15,274 nt of DNA, from contig JAIFTM010000039.1 of assembly GCA_019661745.1 (NCBI GenBank), forward strand, positions 1-15,274, given 5' to 3'. The notes under the pieces were generated by a model that ran no database searches, was not told where the DNA came from, and worked only from the letters and a program-made list of their open reading frames with translations. Position numbers and translations under genes: made by a program. Below, piece after piece: positions 3,981 through 15,177 of the stretch. This stretch comes from Mollicutes bacterium PWAP (GTDB taxonomy: Bacteria; Bacillota_I; Bacilli_A; Mycoplasmatales; Metamycoplasmataceae). How positions within the stretch are numbered: position 1 is the first letter of the stretch; each line of letters starts with the position of its first letter.

Positions 3981-4220
3981 ATGAAAATGGATAAAAATAA
4001 AGAAATGAAAAATAAAAAAACAGCAATTTTTTTAGGTGCTGGTTTTGATAAGAATTTTAATCTCCCTAATTTAGAAGAATTATTAAATAATAAAGATGAT
4101 CATATTAAATCTAATGCATCTAAAAAAAGAAATTTAGTTAAAGACAAAATTAAATTTATTATGAAAAATTATTCTCTTTCTAGATGTTATAGTGAATTAG
4201 ATATAGTCCAAAAAGTGTAG
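3981..4220 (+). pseudogene. Short SIR2-like N-terminal fragment, probable gene remnant
   Basis: A 79-codon frame has residues 14-36 reading K-T-A-I-F-L-G-A-G-F-D-K-N-F-N-L-P and N-L-E-E-L-L. This follows the opening of SIR2-like NAD-binding domains (hydrophobic strand, G-A-G-x-S/D, then L-P-x-x-x-E-L-L). Such domains normally need about 200 residues or more, and here the frame stops after 79. Shifting to the +1 frame just after the stop gives a stretch reading N-G-Q-I-N-I-Y-I-S-I (4233-4262). That loosely recalls the I-x-I-[IV]-T-x-N-Y-D strand of the same domain, as expected if the gene decayed by frameshift, but the resemblance is weak. No Shine-Dalgarno is seen. A small intact protein of unknown function cannot be excluded. 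SIR2-like proteins are common NAD-depleting anti-phage effectors, but no function is claimed here. Confidence 0.4.
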
Positions 4221-4289
4221 TGTTTTCAAAAAATGGACAAATCAATATTTATATATCAATATAATAAATTGCTGTTATAAAAAACATAA

Positions 4290-4329
4290 AAAAGATTAGT
4301 TTTTTATAAAAATAAAAAACTAATCTTTT
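4290..4329. terminator. Bidirectional intrinsic terminator
   Basis: A perfect 16-bp stem (4290-4305 with 4314-4329) with an 8-base AT loop has T-runs in both directions. It is the longest perfect inverted repeat I find in the window. It would end transcription from glyS or from the SIR2-like remnant. Confidence 0.7.
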
Positions 4330-4371
4330 GCTTGGGTAGTTTACAAAAAAAGTGTTAGTTTGATTTTTATT

Positions 4372-4399
4372 AAACAAATTTTAAAATAATTTGTTTTTT
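4372..4399 (+). terminator. Second hairpin with T-run upstream of the membrane-protein gene
   Basis: A 9-bp stem (4372-4380 with 4388-4396) with loop TTAAAAT has a T-run merging into its 3' arm. It sits just before a -10 box and overlaps the place where a -35 box would be, so terminator and promoter are superimposed. Confidence 0.45.
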
Positions 4400-4402
4400 C
4401 TT

Positions 4403-4408
4403 TATTAT
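4403..4408 (+). promoter_or_regulatory. -10 box (TATTAT) of the membrane-protein gene, leaderless
   Basis: TATTAT is followed by six bases and the ATG at 4415. This is the same spacing as at era, leuS and plsY. There is no Shine-Dalgarno. Confidence 0.45.
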
Positions 4409-4414
4409 TAATAT

Positions 4415-4906
4415 ATGAATAAATATACCATTAATGATGTTTTGAAAAGCGATAATTATTTAAAAATTGAATTATTGGAAAGAAAAAGAAAAATAATTAA
4501 AATTAAAAATTTATTAATTTCAATTTTTTTAGTATTAAACATTTTAATTTCAATAACTATTTTTTTTACTTTAAGGAATGGAATATATTATTTTTTTATT
4601 ATAGTGGGTGTTCTCTTATTGGCAATTTTATATATAACTATACCAATTATTAAATCTTTTGATAATAATTTATTTTATGATTCAAAAGATGATTTAAATA
4701 AAAAAGAAGTTGATATTTATAATATTGATGACGTTGCTAAAATGAGTCTTATTAATTTTGAAAATTGTATTCAAATTAATGATTTCGAAGATGAAAAATT
4801 TATTGTAAAAAATTTTTGAAAAAAAGCTAAATTTTTAAATTCTCTAAAAAATCAAAGAGAATCTATAATTTCATCTTTAAAACTAAATATTAAAAAAACA
4901 AAATAA
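4415..4906 (+). CDS. Hypothetical membrane protein with two transmembrane helices
   Basis: The family is not recognised. The protein has 163 residues with one TGA Trp codon (W135). A charged N-terminal segment (1-30, with R/K-rich L-E-R-K-R-K near 21-26) precedes two hydrophobic helices at about 33-53 and 57-79, separated by a very short turn (L-R-N-G). A Lys/Asp/Asn-rich C-terminal region (80-163) follows. The positive residues before helix 1 suggest both termini are cytoplasmic (inference from the positive-inside rule). There is no signal peptide or lipobox. Its start is set by a -10 box six bases upstream. It lies between terminators and just upstream of leuS, which has its own promoter, so it is probably a single-gene unit. 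Confidence 0.7.
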
Positions 4907-4954: not shown

Positions 4955-6817
4955 ATGTTTAATCATAAAAAGATAGAAAAAAAATGAGCAAAATATTGAG
5001 ATGAAAATAAAACTTTCAAAACAACAGATAAAAGTGATAAAAAATATTATGTTTTAGATATGTTTCCATATCCATCAGGTTCAGGACTTCATGTAGGACA
5101 TCCAGAAGGTTATACAGCAACTGACATTGTTGCTAGGTACAAAAGATTGAATGGATTTGATGTATTACATCCAATTGGTTGAGATGCCTTTGGTTTACCA
5201 GCCGAACAATATGCTATAAAAACAGGTAATCATCCAAATAAATTTACAATTAAAAATATAAATAATTTCAGAAGACAACTTAAAGAATTAGGATTTAGTT
5301 TTGATTATGATAAAGAAGTTAATACTACAGATCCAAAATTTTTCAAAACTACACAATGAATTTTTATTCAAATGTATAAAAAAGGATTGGCTAAAATTAA
5401 AGAAGTCAATGTCAACTGATGTCAAGAACTTGGAACAGTGCTTGCTAATGAAGAAGTATTAAAAGATGAAAATGGTAATGGAGTTTCTGAAAGAGGCGGT
5501 TTTAAAGTAATTCAAAAACCAATGAAACAATGAGTTTTAAAAATTACAGATTATGCTCAAAAATTATATGATGGTATTAATGATTTGGACTGACCAAGTT
5601 CTTTAAAATCTTTGCAAAAAAATTGAATTTTTTCTCCTGAAGATGGTTCTTTACATTTAAGAGATTGAGTATTTTCAAGACAAAGATATTGAGGCGAACC
5701 TTTTCCTTTTGCCTTTAATGAAAAAGATGAAATTATGATCATGGAAAATCTTCCTTTAGAATTGCCTGAAATGGATGAAATTAAACCAAGCGGAACAGGA
5801 GAAAGCCCTCTAGCTAATAATAAAGAGTGACTATATTTTGATTTAAAGGGCACTACTTGAAGAAAAGATACAAATACAATGCCTCAATGAGCAGGAAGTA
5901 GTTGATATTACTTAGCTTATATACTTAAAAATGATGACGGTTCTTATTTTGATATAACTTCAAAAGAAGCTAAAGAAAGATTTGAAAAATGATTGCCTGT
6001 TGATTTATACATAGGCGGACAAGAACATGCGGTACTACATCTTTTATATGCAAGATTCTGACATAAAGTATTATTTGATTTAGGAATTGTAAATACTGAA
6101 GAACCATTTCAAAAAATTATTAATCAAGGGATGATACTAGGTCCTGATATGAAAAAAATGTCTAAAAGCAAAGGTAATGTTATAAATCCTGATGATATTA
6201 TTATAGAATTTGGAGGTGATACTTTAAGACTTTATGAAATGTTCATGGGCCCTTTAGAAGAAACCAAACCTTGAAGTGAACAAGGAGTTAAGGGAATTAG
6301 GAAATGATTGCAAAGAGTATATGATTCTAAACAATTTATTTCTGAAGAAAAAAATATTTCAATTATTTCTTCCATAAATAATCTTATTAAAAATGCAACC
6401 AAAGATATTGAAAAATTAAAATTTAATACTGTTATTAGTAAAATGATGGTGTTTATTAATGATGTTTATAAAAATAAAAATATAGATAAAGATTCTTTAG
6501 AAAAATTCTTAGTTATTCTTTCATTATTTGCGCCTTTTATTGCTGAAGAAATGCTTTCAGAATTAAACAAAAATGATGTATTTAAACAAGAATGACCTGC
6601 TTATAATGAAGATTTAATAAAAAAAGAAAATATTATAATTCCAGTTCAAATTAATGGCAAAACAAGAGGTAAATTGATTTTAGAAGATTGAATGAAAGAA
6701 GATGACATTATTTCACATGCAAAAAAAATTCCAAATGTTAAAAATTTCATTGATGGAAAAAAAATCATTAAAGAAATATATATATTAAAAAAAATTATAA
6801 ACTTAGTTGTTAAGTAG
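4955..6817 (+). CDS. leuS: Leucyl-tRNA synthetase lacking the CP1 editing domain
   Basis: A class I synthetase that charges tRNA-Leu. It has 620 residues against roughly 800-860 for ordinary bacterial LeuRS, and many TGA Trp codons. The class I signatures are intact: H46-V-G-H49 after F-P-Y-P-S-G, and K401-M-S-K-S405. The catalytic core passes directly from K-N-W224-I to L-R236-D-W-V-F-S-R-Q-R-Y-W. In other LeuRSs about 190 residues of CP1 editing domain, with its T-rich peptide and conserved Asp, lie between these two points. Here a linker of about 11 residues ([11 protein letters not shown]) replaces them. The anticodon-binding and C-terminal domains are present ([11 protein letters not shown] near the end). 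The enzyme therefore cannot hydrolyse mischarged tRNA in cis. The same condition is published for Mycoplasma mobile. Confidence 0.96.
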
Positions 6818-10104: not shown

Positions 10105-10660
10105 TATCATCTTGCCTTTGACTACTAAATAAATCAAATTCTTCTTCATCAGAAGTAGAGTCTAATTGTTCAATGTCAGGAAGTTCTCTAAGAGAATTTA
10201 ATTGAAAATAATCATAGAATTTTTTGCTAACTCCATATAAAACAGGATTTCCAGGAGTTGGAGCAATGCCTTTTTCTTCAATAATTCCTTTAATTAGTAA
10301 AGTATTAGTTACGGCTTCACTACTCTTGCCTCTAATTGCATTAATTTTACTTTTTGTAACAGGTTGATTATAAGCGACAATTGCTGAAACTTCTATAGCC
10401 GCATCAGAAAGAACTCTTCTTTTTTCAACAGTAACAAAATCACTAATTTCTTCAGCAAATTCTGGACGAGTAATAAATTTAAAAACATCAGCTGCTTCAA
10501 TTAACATTAAACCTCTTTGTAAGTTATTAAATTCTTTTTTAAATATTTTTAATTTTTTTCTACAGTCTTCTGTATTAATTTTTAAAATAATTTTAAGTTG
10601 TCTTGGTGTTAACCCTACATCTCCTTGAATATAAAGCATTGCTTCAATTAAATTATTCAT
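10097..10660 (-). CDS. scpB: Segregation and condensation protein B
   Basis: A kite subunit of the SMC-ScpAB condensin, which compacts and segregates the chromosome. The 187-residue protein has two winged-helix domains (about 1-75 and 85-160). Family segments include the N-terminal I-E-A-M-L-Y-I-Q-G-D-V-G-L-T, and A-I-E-V-S-A-I-V-A-Y-N-Q-P-V-T-K-S-K-I-N-x-I-R-G, which is the most conserved stretch of ScpB. The loop G-K-S-S-E-A-V replaces the usual G-V-x-S-x-x-x-I. An acidic C-terminal tail follows (D-S-T-S-D-E-E-E-F-D), as in other ScpBs. It overlaps scpA and rluB by 8 bases each, with ATG inside ATGAATAA, so the three are probably translationally coupled. Confidence 0.95.
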   Translation of the reverse strand: MNNLIEAMLYIQGDVGLTPRQLKIILKINTEDCRKKLKIFKKEFNNLQRGLMLIEAADVFKFITRPEFAEEISDFVTVEKRRVLSDAAIEVSAIVAYNQPVTKSKINAIRGKSSEAVTNTLLIKGIIEEKGIAPTPGNPVLYGVSKKFYDYFQLNSLRELPDIEQLDSTSDEEEFDLFSSQRQDDNE

Positions 10661-11495
10661 TAATTACTCCTTTCTTAAGAAAAATCTCTTCATATTGATT
10701 TTCTTGGTAAATATAAATTTCTTTTCTTCTAGACATATCTAATAATGCTATTAATGTTGCCGTAAAGTGTTCTATTGTGGGAACTGAAAAAATATCCTCA
10801 AAATTAAATTCTTTTTTTGCTTGCATAATTTTTATTATTCTTTCTCGCATTTCTTGAGTAGAAATAATATTAGTTTCAATTTTAGCTTCTCTATAAGTTG
10901 CTGAAGCTTTTTTTTCAAAAACTTTTCTCATGGCAATTATTAATTTTGTAATATCGCTTTTACCGTTAAGAATTTTAACTGATGTTTCTTTTTCAAATTC
11001 AGAAATATCAGATTTCTTTTTTGTAAAGGATAATTTTCTTTTCTTTTCTCTATCTCTAAAGTTTGATTTTAAAGATTTATATTTTTGATACTCGATAAGT
11101 TGAATAATTAATTCATTCTTGTCTTCTTGGAATTCTTCATCTTCTTCAAAAAATATGCTTTTGCTTTTAAGTTGTAAAAGAGTTGCTCACATTAATAAAT
11201 ATTCACTTGCTAAATCTATGTTTTGATTTTTAAAATTATTAATAGCTAAATTGTAAAAGTCACTAAGTTCAATAACGTTTATATTTTTTATATCTATTTT
11301 TTTATCTTTAATGTATTCCAAAAGTAAATCTAAAGGACCTTCGTAATTTTCAATTTGTATATTTTCAATTTGATTATTTTTATTTTTTATATTTTCAATT
11401 TGATTATTTTTATTTTTTATATTTTCAATTTGATTATTTTTATTTTTTATATTTTCAATTTGAGTATTGTCAATATTGTTATTTTCAGTTCTCAT
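10653..11495 (-). CDS. scpA: Segregation and condensation protein A with repeat-expanded N-terminus
   Basis: The kleisin subunit that bridges SMC heads and binds ScpB. It has 280 residues with an in-frame TGA (Trp) at 11187-11189. The conserved start of ScpA, here I-E-N-Y-E-G-P-L-D-L-L-L, begins only at about residue 48. Before it are tandem copies of a ten-residue unit, N-Q-I-E-N-I-K-N-K-N, encoded by 30-bp DNA repeats, whereas ordinary ScpAs have only a few residues there. The middle is Lys/Glu-rich (helical linker), and the C-terminal winged helix (about 225-280, ending in I-F-L-K-K-G) binds the SMC head. The start ATG lies 4 bases from the plsC stop, and the GAGG in the last plsC codons is a possible Shine-Dalgarno. 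It overlaps scpB by 8 bases. Confidence 0.93.
11346..11462 (-). repeat. 30-bp tandem repeat in the 5' part of scpA
   Basis: Three perfect consecutive 30-bp units run 11361-11390, 11391-11420 and 11421-11450 (each begins ATTTTCAATTTG on the + strand). They are flanked by a 12-base partial copy of the same core at 11346-11357 and another at 11451-11462. The unit length is a multiple of three, so copy-number change would lengthen or shorten the ScpA N-terminus by ten residues without shifting frame. The identical units imply recent duplication or ongoing homogenisation. Confidence 0.95.
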
Positions 11496-12635: not shown

Positions 12636-12659
12636 AAAAAATCGTCTAAACGATTTTTT
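12636..12659 (-). terminator. Terminator of the ABC-importer operon
   Basis: A perfect 10-bp stem (12636-12645 with 12650-12659) has loop CTAA, with a T-run at the 3' end on the minus strand. The stop codon of the binding-protein gene (12646-12648) is in the loop, so the last codons form the 5' arm. Confidence 0.75.
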
Positions 12660-13704
12660 GAACATTTTTTATAAAATAATTTTTATATTCTAAAAAATTA
12701 TGTGCTAAATATTTTAAATCTGAAGAACTTTTATTCAAATAATTATGAATTTCTTTTTCTGAAATATGAATAACAGATATTATTTTTTCTAATGAAGAGT
12801 ACTTGTTTAATATTTTTAATTTAATGTTTGAATATTTGTTTAATATATTTTTGTTAAATAAATAACCCGCCTTATAAAAAGGCAAAACTCCCAAATTATT
12901 TATTTTCAAAGAAGTCATTGTATTTAAATTGAAATCATTATCTAAATCAAAACCTATAAGTAAATCAATTTTTTCATTTTTTAAAAGGTCATATTTATGA
13001 ATATCTTGTAATAACATTGTTTTTCAAGAAGAAATATTAATTTGTTTAATGTTTCAATTTATTATGTTTTTAACATCTTTGCTACTGGGTGACGGTATTT
13101 TTTCTGTATTTCCAGTGGCCTTTTGGAATAACTCTCCTATTAATGTTGTTTTAAAAGAATCATCGCTAATGCCTATTGTGCCTTTGTTATTTTTGATATA
13201 ATTAACAAATGAAACAGCATTTGTTTTCCTTGATATCATAGTAAAACCATTATTAAACCCAAGACCATCAACTATAGGGCTTTCAATAGCCTTAATATTT
13301 TTTAAATTTTGTTGTTTAATTAAAAATTGATTTAAATCATTAAATTTAATATTGTTATTTTTAGGATCAAACCCATGCTTTTCTTGACCAAAATAAATAT
13401 TTGCAATTGTTCCGGAAAATTCTGCAATTGTATCTATGCGTTCTTTTTCAAAAGCATTAACAACTTTATTATTATCAAAACCTGTTTTAATTTTAGTATT
13501 TATGTTTGTATAATGATTTATCATTTCTTCTTCAACATAAGCACTAAAAAGACTTGTTTTATCTAATTTTGCACCTATATTTAAAACAGGATTAATTTTA
13601 GTATTTATACTTTTAGTTATTAAAATAGAAATTGGCATTATTGGAATTAATAAAAAAAGACTTATGGAAAGAATTTTTTTAAATTTAATTATTTTATTAG
13701 ACAT
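12646..13704 (-). CDS. Substrate-binding protein of a quaternary-amine (glycine betaine/choline-type) ABC importer
   Basis: A 352-residue protein of the OpuAC/OpuBC/ProX type that delivers an osmolyte or choline-like compound to the transporter. It reads through two TGA Trp codons (around 13021-13056). An N-terminal hydrophobic helix (about 11-30) after K-F-K-K has no lipobox Cys, so the protein looks membrane-anchored rather than lipidated. The mature part begins I-G-A-K-L-D-K-T-S, like the G-x-K-x-F-x-E-x-x-I start of this family. I-D-T-I-A-E-F-S-G-T is comparable to the E-I-D-x-Y-x-E-Y-T-G-T segment, and later L-G-F-N-N-G-F-T-M matches the G-F-N-N-x-x-A region. ATG 13704 overlaps the permease stop by 8 bases; the TTG at 13710 is less likely. 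The terminal family assignment is by motifs only; the exact substrate is unknown. Confidence 0.8.
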
Positions 13705-14329
13705 TAGCAACCTTTTTTTTATTATTTTTTGAAGAAAAAGATCACTTAATTAAAGAAATTATTCCAAATGTTGTTAAAGATAATAAAATAATTGGAATAG
13801 TTCCTTGCATAACTAAAGAAACTGATTTTAGAGTTATACCTTGATAAATAATTTCTCCTAGTCCGCCTGCACCAATTGAAAAAGCTATAGATGTAGTTCC
13901 AATAATTAAAATAGAACTTATTCTAATACCATTAATTATTGTAGAAAGATTACCTCTAAATCTTATTTTTCAAATTATGTTTCATTCATTCATTCCTAAA
14001 CTTTTAGCAACAAGAATTTTTTTCTTTTCTATATTATTTAAAGCTACTATAGTATTTGAAAGTATAGGAAATATTCCATAAAGACTTAAAGTAATAAGTA
14101 CTATCAATAATAAATCATCAATAGTGGGCAAAAGAACTCCAAATAAAGTTATTGAAGGAATAACTTGAAGAATGGCGCTTCCATTCACAAATATTGTTTT
14201 TGCAAATTTAGTTTTATAAACTAAAATACCAATGCCAATTCCAATTAAAGTAGAAATAATAAGAGCTAAAAAACTCATTTCAATATGCTCTAAAAGTTGG
14301 TTTCAAATATCATTTCAATAAATTACCAT
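13697..14329 (-). CDS. Permease of a quaternary-amine ABC importer
   Basis: A 210-residue membrane subunit of the OpuBB/ProW type. After a short amphipathic start (residues 1-16) there are about five hydrophobic helices, near 17-37, 44-65, 70-97, 133-153 and 170-195. The EAA-type cytoplasmic loop that docks on the ATPase is E101-x-x-x-x-x-V-A-K-S-L-G112-M. I-P-S-I-T-L-F near 57-63 and I-G-A-G-G-L-G near 152-158 are characteristic of this permease group. Three TGA Trp codons fall near residues 5, 9 and 116. The start overlaps the ATPase stop by one base (TAATG), and the end overlaps the binding-protein start by 8 bases (ATGTCTAA). The tail is Lys-rich. Confidence 0.88.
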
Positions 14330-15177
14330 TATTTATTTCCTTCTATGATTGAAAAATCTTCAATTACATCTAATAAGAAAAAACTTCTTATATATTTATC
14401 TTTAGTTTTTTTTATTTCTTCAGCTGTAAAGCATTTATTTTTATAAATTTTTCCATCTTTTAATATGTAAATAAAATCACTTAATTTCAATACTTCATCA
14501 GGATCATGACTTACCATTATTATTGTAATACCTAATTCTTCTTTTAATTTATAAGTTAAATTTTGTGTAGCTGTACGAGTGATGGGGTCTAAAGCAGAAA
14601 AAGGTTCATCCATTAAAAGAATATCATTTTCTAAAATCAAAGCTCTAATTATACCGATTCTTTGTTGTTGGCCTCCTGAAAGTTCAATCGGAAATTTTTC
14701 ATAAAATTTTTTATTTATTTGTAATTTATCAAATAATTTAAATAATCTTTTTTGAAAAATTATTTTTGAAAAATTTCCATTATTTTTTTCATTTTTAATT
14801 TCTTTTTTAGGAACAAGATTTAATTTCATTTTTTTAATAATAGTTTTTTGTTTTATCTTTCTAACTAATTCAAAATTTTCTTTAATATTTAAATGATCAA
14901 ATAAACCGCCTTGTTGAACAATGTAGCTTATTAGATTTGTTTTTTCTTTTAAAGACATATCAGTAATATCATTATTAAAAAGTAAAATATTTCCACTTTT
15001 AATTTTTTTTAAACCATTCATTGTTTGTAGTAGAGTACTTTTACCAGAACCAGAAGCACCAACGATGGTTGTAAATGAACTCTTTTTAATAGTAAGATCA
15101 ATATTTTTTATCACAATTTCTTTTTTGTAATCAACAACAACATTTTTAAATTCAATTGCATTTAATATTTTTTTCAT
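14329..15177 (-). CDS. ATPase of a quaternary-amine ABC importer, with an insert before the signature
   Basis: A 282-residue nucleotide-binding subunit that powers the importer. Walker A G40-A-S-G-S-G-K-S-T48; Q-loop Q88; signature L166-S-G-G-Q-Q-Q-R173; Walker B I-L-L-M-D190-E191-P; D-loop S-A-L-D; switch H224 in V-S-H-D. A-L-D-P-I-T-R after Walker B is typical of glycine betaine/choline importers. The Q-loop to signature span is about 79 residues, longer than the usual 55-65, because of a Lys/Asn-rich stretch at about 105-140. There is no C-terminal CBS domain pair, unlike the osmoregulated OpuAA/ProV. The Shine-Dalgarno AAGGAG is six to ten bases upstream. It is the first gene of the operon and overlaps the permease start by one base. 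Confidence 0.92.
   Translation of the reverse strand: MKKILNAIEFKNVVVDYKKEIVIKNIDLTIKKSSFTTIVGASGSGKSTLLQTMNGLKKIKSGNILLFNNDITDMSLKEKTNLISYIVQQGGLFDHLNIKENFELVRKIKQKTIIKKMKLNLVPKKEIKNEKNNGNFSKIIFQKRLFKLFDKLQINKKFYEKFPIELSGGQQQRIGIIRALILENDILLMDEPFSALDPITRTATQNLTYKLKEELGITIIMVSHDPDEVLKLSDFIYILKDGKIYKNKCFTAEEIKKTKDKYIRSFFLLDVIEDFSIIEGNK

Follow-up and report, generated by a model that had tools for sequence, protein, structure and literature searches.

The window, a 15,274-nt stretch of DNA from Mollicutes bacterium PWAP, carries a leuS gene for a leucyl-tRNA synthetase (LeuRS) without the CP1 editing domain. We think it very probable that an ancestor lost CP1 by excision, leaving a short turn to bridge the gap in an aminoacylation core that stayed complete, and that the order has seen at least three such losses; the enzyme would charge tRNA-Leu normally and be unable to hydrolyse mischarged tRNA, leaving Leu codons somewhat ambiguous.

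The leuS gene and its CP1 junction

The source genome amounts to 549,125 bases in 85 contigs and is 80.9% complete; the window is its contig C35 and is AT-rich (16–29% GC per kb). The leuS open reading frame, read in table 4, has 20 TGA codons for Trp. The features of the gene are as follows.

4955..6817 (+), leuS, leucyl-tRNA synthetase without CP1 editing domain, 620 aa (ORF, Pfam, NCBIfam, structure match)
5090..5101 (+), HVGH, the class I 'HIGH' signature, residues 46-49 (motif reading)
5624..5629 (+), W224-I225, N-terminal deletion edge (invariant in alignments A1 and A2)
5630..5656 (+), linker FSPEDGSLH, residues 226-234, replacing CP1 (alignment, AF2 model)
5657..5695 (+), C-terminal deletion edge LRDWVFSRQRYWG, residues 235-247 (alignment)
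5675..5677 (+), Ser241, kept as Ser here; Ala in many CP1-less rows
6155..6169 (+), KMSKS signature, residues 401-405 (motif reading)
6362..6682 (+), anticodon-binding domain PF08264, residues 470-576 (Pfam)

Across the junction the protein reads N223-W224-I225, nine residues, and then L235-R236-D-W-V-F-S-R-Q-R-Y-W-G, where CP1-bearing relatives in the same family have 152–189 residues in place of the nine. Pfam matched the protein to a class I core and an anticodon domain but not to the editing domain PF13603. The NCBIfam bacterial leuS profile, TIGR00396, scored 757.2 bits (cut-off 548.4) and aligned in two stretches, the better one pairing residues 234–620 with profile positions 410–843. 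The core is conserved, and the assignment to the bacterial LeuRS family rests on it, not on CP1. A TIGR00396 search of the genome gave only one match set above the cut-off, and this is the sole LeuRS detected in the 80.9% complete genome. In an AlphaFold2 (AF2) model built from 42 sequences (mean pLDDT 86.9, pTM 0.84), the linker is predicted as coil, with residues 226 and 233 assigned as bridge, which makes it a tight turn.

A first-pass annotation, made from the letters alone, had already read this gene as a 620-residue LeuRS lacking CP1 with both class I signatures intact. The alignment, the missing PF13603 match and a short linker common to other genomes bear out the loss, and HVGH, KMSKS and the anticodon domain were all found at the residues listed above. 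The annotation had placed about 11 residues between the flanks; the linker is indeed short, and its length by alignment is nine (F226-H234). Alignment of many LeuRS enzymes, which it had proposed, mapped the deletion edges to W224-I225 and L235. It had also named a sequencing deletion absent from other isolates as a possible refutation. The assembly is fragmented, as a deletion introduced by assembly or sequencing of the window's contig would suit, but the leuS frame is intact and short linkers recur at the same site in 28 other genomes. Because it lies far outside the normal length range and is common to many independent genomes, the linker is neither chance nor a local deletion, and we regard the chance of an artefact as negligible.

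The best PDB fold match of the model is the M. mobile (Mycoplasma mobile) LeuRS, 3ziu (TM 0.85, 58% identity). The two enzymes are colinear end to end and share one fold, and in both CP1 has given way to a short linker, of 12 residues in M. mobile and 9 here. The architecture that the annotation had compared with the editing-less M. mobile enzyme is thus already known, and the window's gene adds a case; to our knowledge, a CP1-less LeuRS had come from one species only. However, the M. mobile protein has Ala at the position of Ser241, which the window's enzyme keeps, and it sits in another part of the core tree, possibly after a separate loss. The further suggestion that the window comes from M. 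mobile or a close relative did not survive: the nearest proteins among the homologues listed are 71% identical, and the 58% identity and core-tree place of the M. mobile LeuRS rule out M. mobile itself.

The LeuRS enzymes of Mycoplasma todarodis (P0021), M. marinum (P0035) and Mesomycoplasma moatsii (P0062) are likewise CP1-less (67, 65 and 64% identical to the window's), but they have 12-residue GKE...YH linkers and Ala at the Ser241 position. The canonical enzymes of E. coli (4aq7) and T. thermophilus (1h3n), which carry CP1, share the core, the signatures and the anticodon domain and are fold matches of the model. Against the CP1-bearing T. thermophilus protein, the window's LeuRS aligns in three stretches; one break falls at CP1 (229 to 417 in T. 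thermophilus) and the second at another insertion, N-terminal of KMSKS. In LeuRS of genera g7 and g11, which belong to the window's family and carry a degenerate CP1, the editing motifs TTR.DT and HD.RD are also absent (5 rows read); these proteins differ in that the domain remains as 152–161 residues and the core is more diverged.

Elsewhere in the window, two small ORFs (79 and 163 aa) without Pfam match lie between glyS and leuS at 3981-4906, in the AT-richest kilobase (16% GC). A ScpA-like protein at 10653-11495 scores 215.7 bits for NF000994, below the cut-off of 234, and three head-to-tail IENIKNKNNQ copies lie near its start (11370-11459, minus strand). On the minus strand at 12646-15177, ABC transporter ATPase and permease genes are followed by one for a 354-aa protein without Pfam match, which may be the transporter's binding protein.

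Distribution and repeated loss of CP1

We searched 135 genomes of the window's family (f1) and 320 of its order. A LeuRS match at 1e-30 was found in 313 of the 320 and was absent at that threshold from G002, G003, G056, G144, G147, G237 and G303. G003 (f1, 2 contigs, 83% complete) also had no TIGR00396 match above cut-off. One uninterrupted match along the query, the CP1-less pattern, was seen in 29 of the 313: 21 in f1 (genera g1, g2, g8, g10, g12, g13 and g14), the remaining 8 in family f3. Every one of these linkers was read and has 8–15 residues; the other 54 rows of an 83-row alignment have 105–191. CP1-less enzymes account for 3 of 3 genomes in g8, 11 of 12 in g14 and 8 of the 9 LeuRS found in f3, the ninth of which (G137) has a worn CP1 of 165 residues. 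Among the best 120 of 7,999 scored homologues, a CP1 is present in 5; the other 115, one of which is the window's own, have linkers of 8, 9, 12 or 13 residues. In a search for cases outside the order, 369 of 395 class-level genomes had a match at 1e-60, and among the matches listed the only uninterrupted rows of full length were those of G000 and G129, which belong to the window's family. Single-match genomes were read only in part (not, for example, G371 and G377), and a much diverged case could escape this search.

PF13603 scores across the 135 family genomes (1e-10) were at least 135 bits in 51 and 40–61 bits in 21 (3 in g7, 18 in g11), with no match in 63. CP1 survives as remnants of 105 residues in G220, 116 in G213 and 152 in G146; the first two (L097 and L098) lack the editing motifs and are possible halfway stages.

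LeuRS trees were built with the CP1 columns removed. CP1 state changed 4 times on a quick 83-row tree and 4 times on a careful 53-row tree (4–4 in bootstraps), made after 30 rows with long branches or redundant sequences had been taken out. Adding M. mobile and 11 database proteins and removing 6 rows gave a 59-row tree with 5 changes (5–6 in bootstraps). The simplest account has at least three losses of CP1 within the order: in f3, where the sister G137 keeps its worn CP1; in the window's clade; and in g12, whose CP1-less rows are sister to G120 with an intact CP1 (100/96). The branch uniting the window's group with g14 received 97/88 in the 53-row tree and 65/79 in another, so that a loss shared by these two has weak support in the latter and better support in the former; one loss for the window's clade alone is the best reading.

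M. mobile is perhaps an additional, separate loss. Its LeuRS lies outside the window's clade, grouping with mostly CP1-bearing rows (86/94, 59-row tree). Joining it to the window's clade cost 15.4 log units (AU p 0.029, the clade having been chosen after seeing the tree), and joining it to CP1-less g12 was not rejected (p 0.40). The groups constrained in these tests were chosen after tree inspection, and the p values serve as guides.

A single loss for all CP1-less LeuRS, with the CP1-bearing genomes among them misplaced, would account for the likeness of the g8, g14 and M. mobile linkers (GKE..-GK.-TYH/K), and the window's group, g14 and the CP1-bearing trio described below are indeed split off together by a branch of the best tree (65/79). 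However, one clade of all 32 CP1-less rows was rejected (AU p 2.2e-49), G120 with its intact CP1 is sister to CP1-less g12, and f3 is far away in both the LeuRS and RpoB trees. We consider a single loss barely credible. The pattern may reflect separate losses, or recombination spreading a CP1-less stretch.

CP1-less genomes were also scattered in an RpoB tree of 49 rows (6 changes), in which the window's own row has a long branch and no firm place. RpoB put g14 with g4–g7, g9, g11 and g12, apart from g2, g8, g10 and g13, and the LeuRS tree disagrees. Given this conflict, leuS may have been transferred into g14, or one of the trees is wrong.

Four of 61 g11 genomes (G065, G070, G078 and G079; L078-L081) have a g5-like, intact LeuRS, and the other g11 genomes match the LeuRS query far worse. 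G065 sits with G110 of g11 in the RpoB tree. Whole-gene replacement of leuS is likely in these four.

Candidate regain of CP1 in genus g14

G124 (L071; f1, g14) has a CP1 of 168 residues on a core nested in CP1-less g14. Two database proteins, P0114 (CP1 of 179 residues) and P0117 (176), join it with support of 94 in one tree and 89/94 in the 59-row tree; since they come from other contigs, a fault in a single assembly does not explain the CP1 of this trio. A constraint uniting the CP1-less rows of the window's group and of g14 to the exclusion of the trio was rejected (p 9.5e-5). From the sequences, a CP1 nested in a CP1-less clade suggests regain by domain transfer through recombination. Probably, the g14 ancestor lost CP1 and the trio reacquired it at the old junction from a lineage resembling g4/g5 within the same family, with different histories for core and CP1 and with Ala241 as a scar; some g11 genomes (4/61) would have regained it with a whole g5-like leuS.

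The CP1s of the trio group with those of g4 and g5/g11 (87/88) in a tree built without G137, the near-duplicates P0119/P0120 and CP1s that are worn or on long branches; CP1-only trees resolve poorly. Two CP1 indels give segments of 9 and 5–6 residues in the trio, 9 and 5–6 in g4, and 8–9 and 5–9 in g5/g11, against 11–12 and 11–16 in all other rows of a 43-row set. Compared over 22 core windows of 30 columns, the trio is nearest to g14 in 20, among them the one at the junction; of the remaining two, g5 ties in one and leads in the other. In the trio's CP1s the TTR stretch is intact and HD.RD has both its Asp residues but not its His; in G124, Lys replaces Arg. PF13603 scores are 159 bits for P0114 and 167 for P0117, and the P0114 CP1 is predicted to be folded (pLDDT mostly 77–91, one block 57).

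Position 241 is Ala in G124, P0114 and P0117. In a 190-row set, whose rows are related and not independent, 42 of 46 CP1-bearing rows have Ser, the trio alone has Ala and one could not be read by motif; the 144 CP1-less rows have Ala in 99 and Ser in 45. There are counter-cases in both directions: Ala with CP1 in 3 of 29 named outgroup loci and G149, and Ser without CP1 in the window's LeuRS, G001, G055 and G122. Ser241Ala went in the same direction as CP1 loss in 3 of 4 independent pairs, with no difference in the fourth (p 0.25; too few pairs).

The alternative to regain is that the trio retained the old CP1, with at least four separate losses within g14 on the 59-row tree. RpoB places g14 nearer g4/g5, where a g4/g5-like CP1 would be less strange. 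However, retention gives no reason for the g4/g5-type indels, which are absent from g6, g9 and g12 although RpoB places these no farther away, and it would require the ancestor to have had Ala241 before any CP1 was lost. We therefore favor regain in the trio.

Proofreading and its biological meaning

Trans-editing factors exist for other tRNAs, and a second LeuRS or a distant factor acting on tRNA-Leu could lie in the missing part of the genome. The first-pass annotation had named a separate CP1-like protein as one finding that would overturn its reading. A PF13603 search of the 80.9% complete genome found no free-standing CP1; the matches were IleRS (C63) and ValRS (C38) alone, at 25 and 21.4 bits (33.7 for ValRS with its neighbours in frame). 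NCBIfam gives both proteins these names, and at 888 and 825 aa they are full length. LeuRS CP1 domains of the family score 135–223 bits. In 27 genomes searched in the same way, the LeuRS CP1 of G120, G124 and G054 scored 135–219 bits, and in the 21 CP1-less f1 genomes (the window's and 20 relatives) no match exceeded 34.4 bits. We judge editing in trans to be very improbable. A 2014 paper describes the free-standing editing proteins YbaK, ProX and AlaX as absent from Mollicutes (PMC4014445).

Other editing domains are recognised in this genome: B3/4 of PheRS at 68.8 bits, on a beta frame of only 432 aa, and tRNA_SAD of ThrRS at 33.8 bits. Among the synthetase editing domains tested there, LeuRS alone is without its domain.

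The fidelity of the window's LeuRS would then rest on its synthetic site and on tRNA-independent pre-transfer editing. By analogy with M. mobile, for which such ambiguity has been reported, we infer that it mischarges tRNA-Leu somewhat; two papers describe the M. mobile enzyme as ambiguous (PMC3834818, PMC10057733). Val, Ile or Met at Leu codons, which the first-pass annotation suggested, would follow from the same analogy. It is also conceivable, though unlikely, that CP1 was lost by neutral streamlining and that the synthetic site is strict enough to prevent mistranslation. A stricter synthetic site has a precedent in human mitochondrial LeuRS, according to PMC3834818; in other synthetases, too, errors need not follow when an editing domain is lost (PMC11415595), and CP1 loss recurs, as expected if it is cheap. 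The description of M. mobile LeuRS as ambiguous speaks against this, as does a scan for core columns conserved in CP1-bearing rows and changed in at least three of five CP1-less groups; it gave four columns, taken irrespective of the leucine pocket, and is a weak test.

In family f3 (L174-L182; G138, G140, G142, G143 and G145), the editing domains of ThrRS and PheRS were unmatched beside a CP1-less LeuRS. Pfam found no tRNA_SAD in 5 of 5 ThrRS read, although three control ThrRS show it, and no B3/4 at 0.01 in 4 of 4 PheRS beta chains read. About 200 N-terminal residues without Pfam match are kept in 3 of the 5 ThrRS, an unmatched stretch is retained between the tRNA-binding and B5 domains of PheRS beta, and weak B3/4 matches lie below the cut-off in G136, G143 and G145. 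These domains appear to be missing in some f3 proteins and at least unrecognisable in others, and f3 may lack three editing functions (LeuRS, ThrRS and PheRS). A 2020 review knew of no mycoplasma with at least three lost editing functions (PMC7373986).

Editing domains of LeuRS, PheRS and ThrRS are mutated or deleted in several Mycoplasma species, as the 2014 paper cited above notes. Repeated loss or regain of LeuRS CP1 was not found in literature searched by titles and abstract starts, with subscription journals little covered, which is weak evidence of absence. A 2011 PNAS paper reportedly dealt with mycoplasma editing-domain mutations.

The CP1-less LeuRS is the enzyme of most genomes searched in several genera and of a second family. 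With CP1 lost several times, partly decayed in some lineages and probably regained, there are natural replicates for asking whether loss of synthetase editing in host-bound bacteria is a benefit or only decay, and the mixed genera g12 and g14 offer near-relatives with and without CP1 for proteomic comparison. If the regain is true, LeuRS proofreading would be reversible in mycoplasmas, and statistical mistranslation of Leu codons would be a state that is entered and left, not a dead end.
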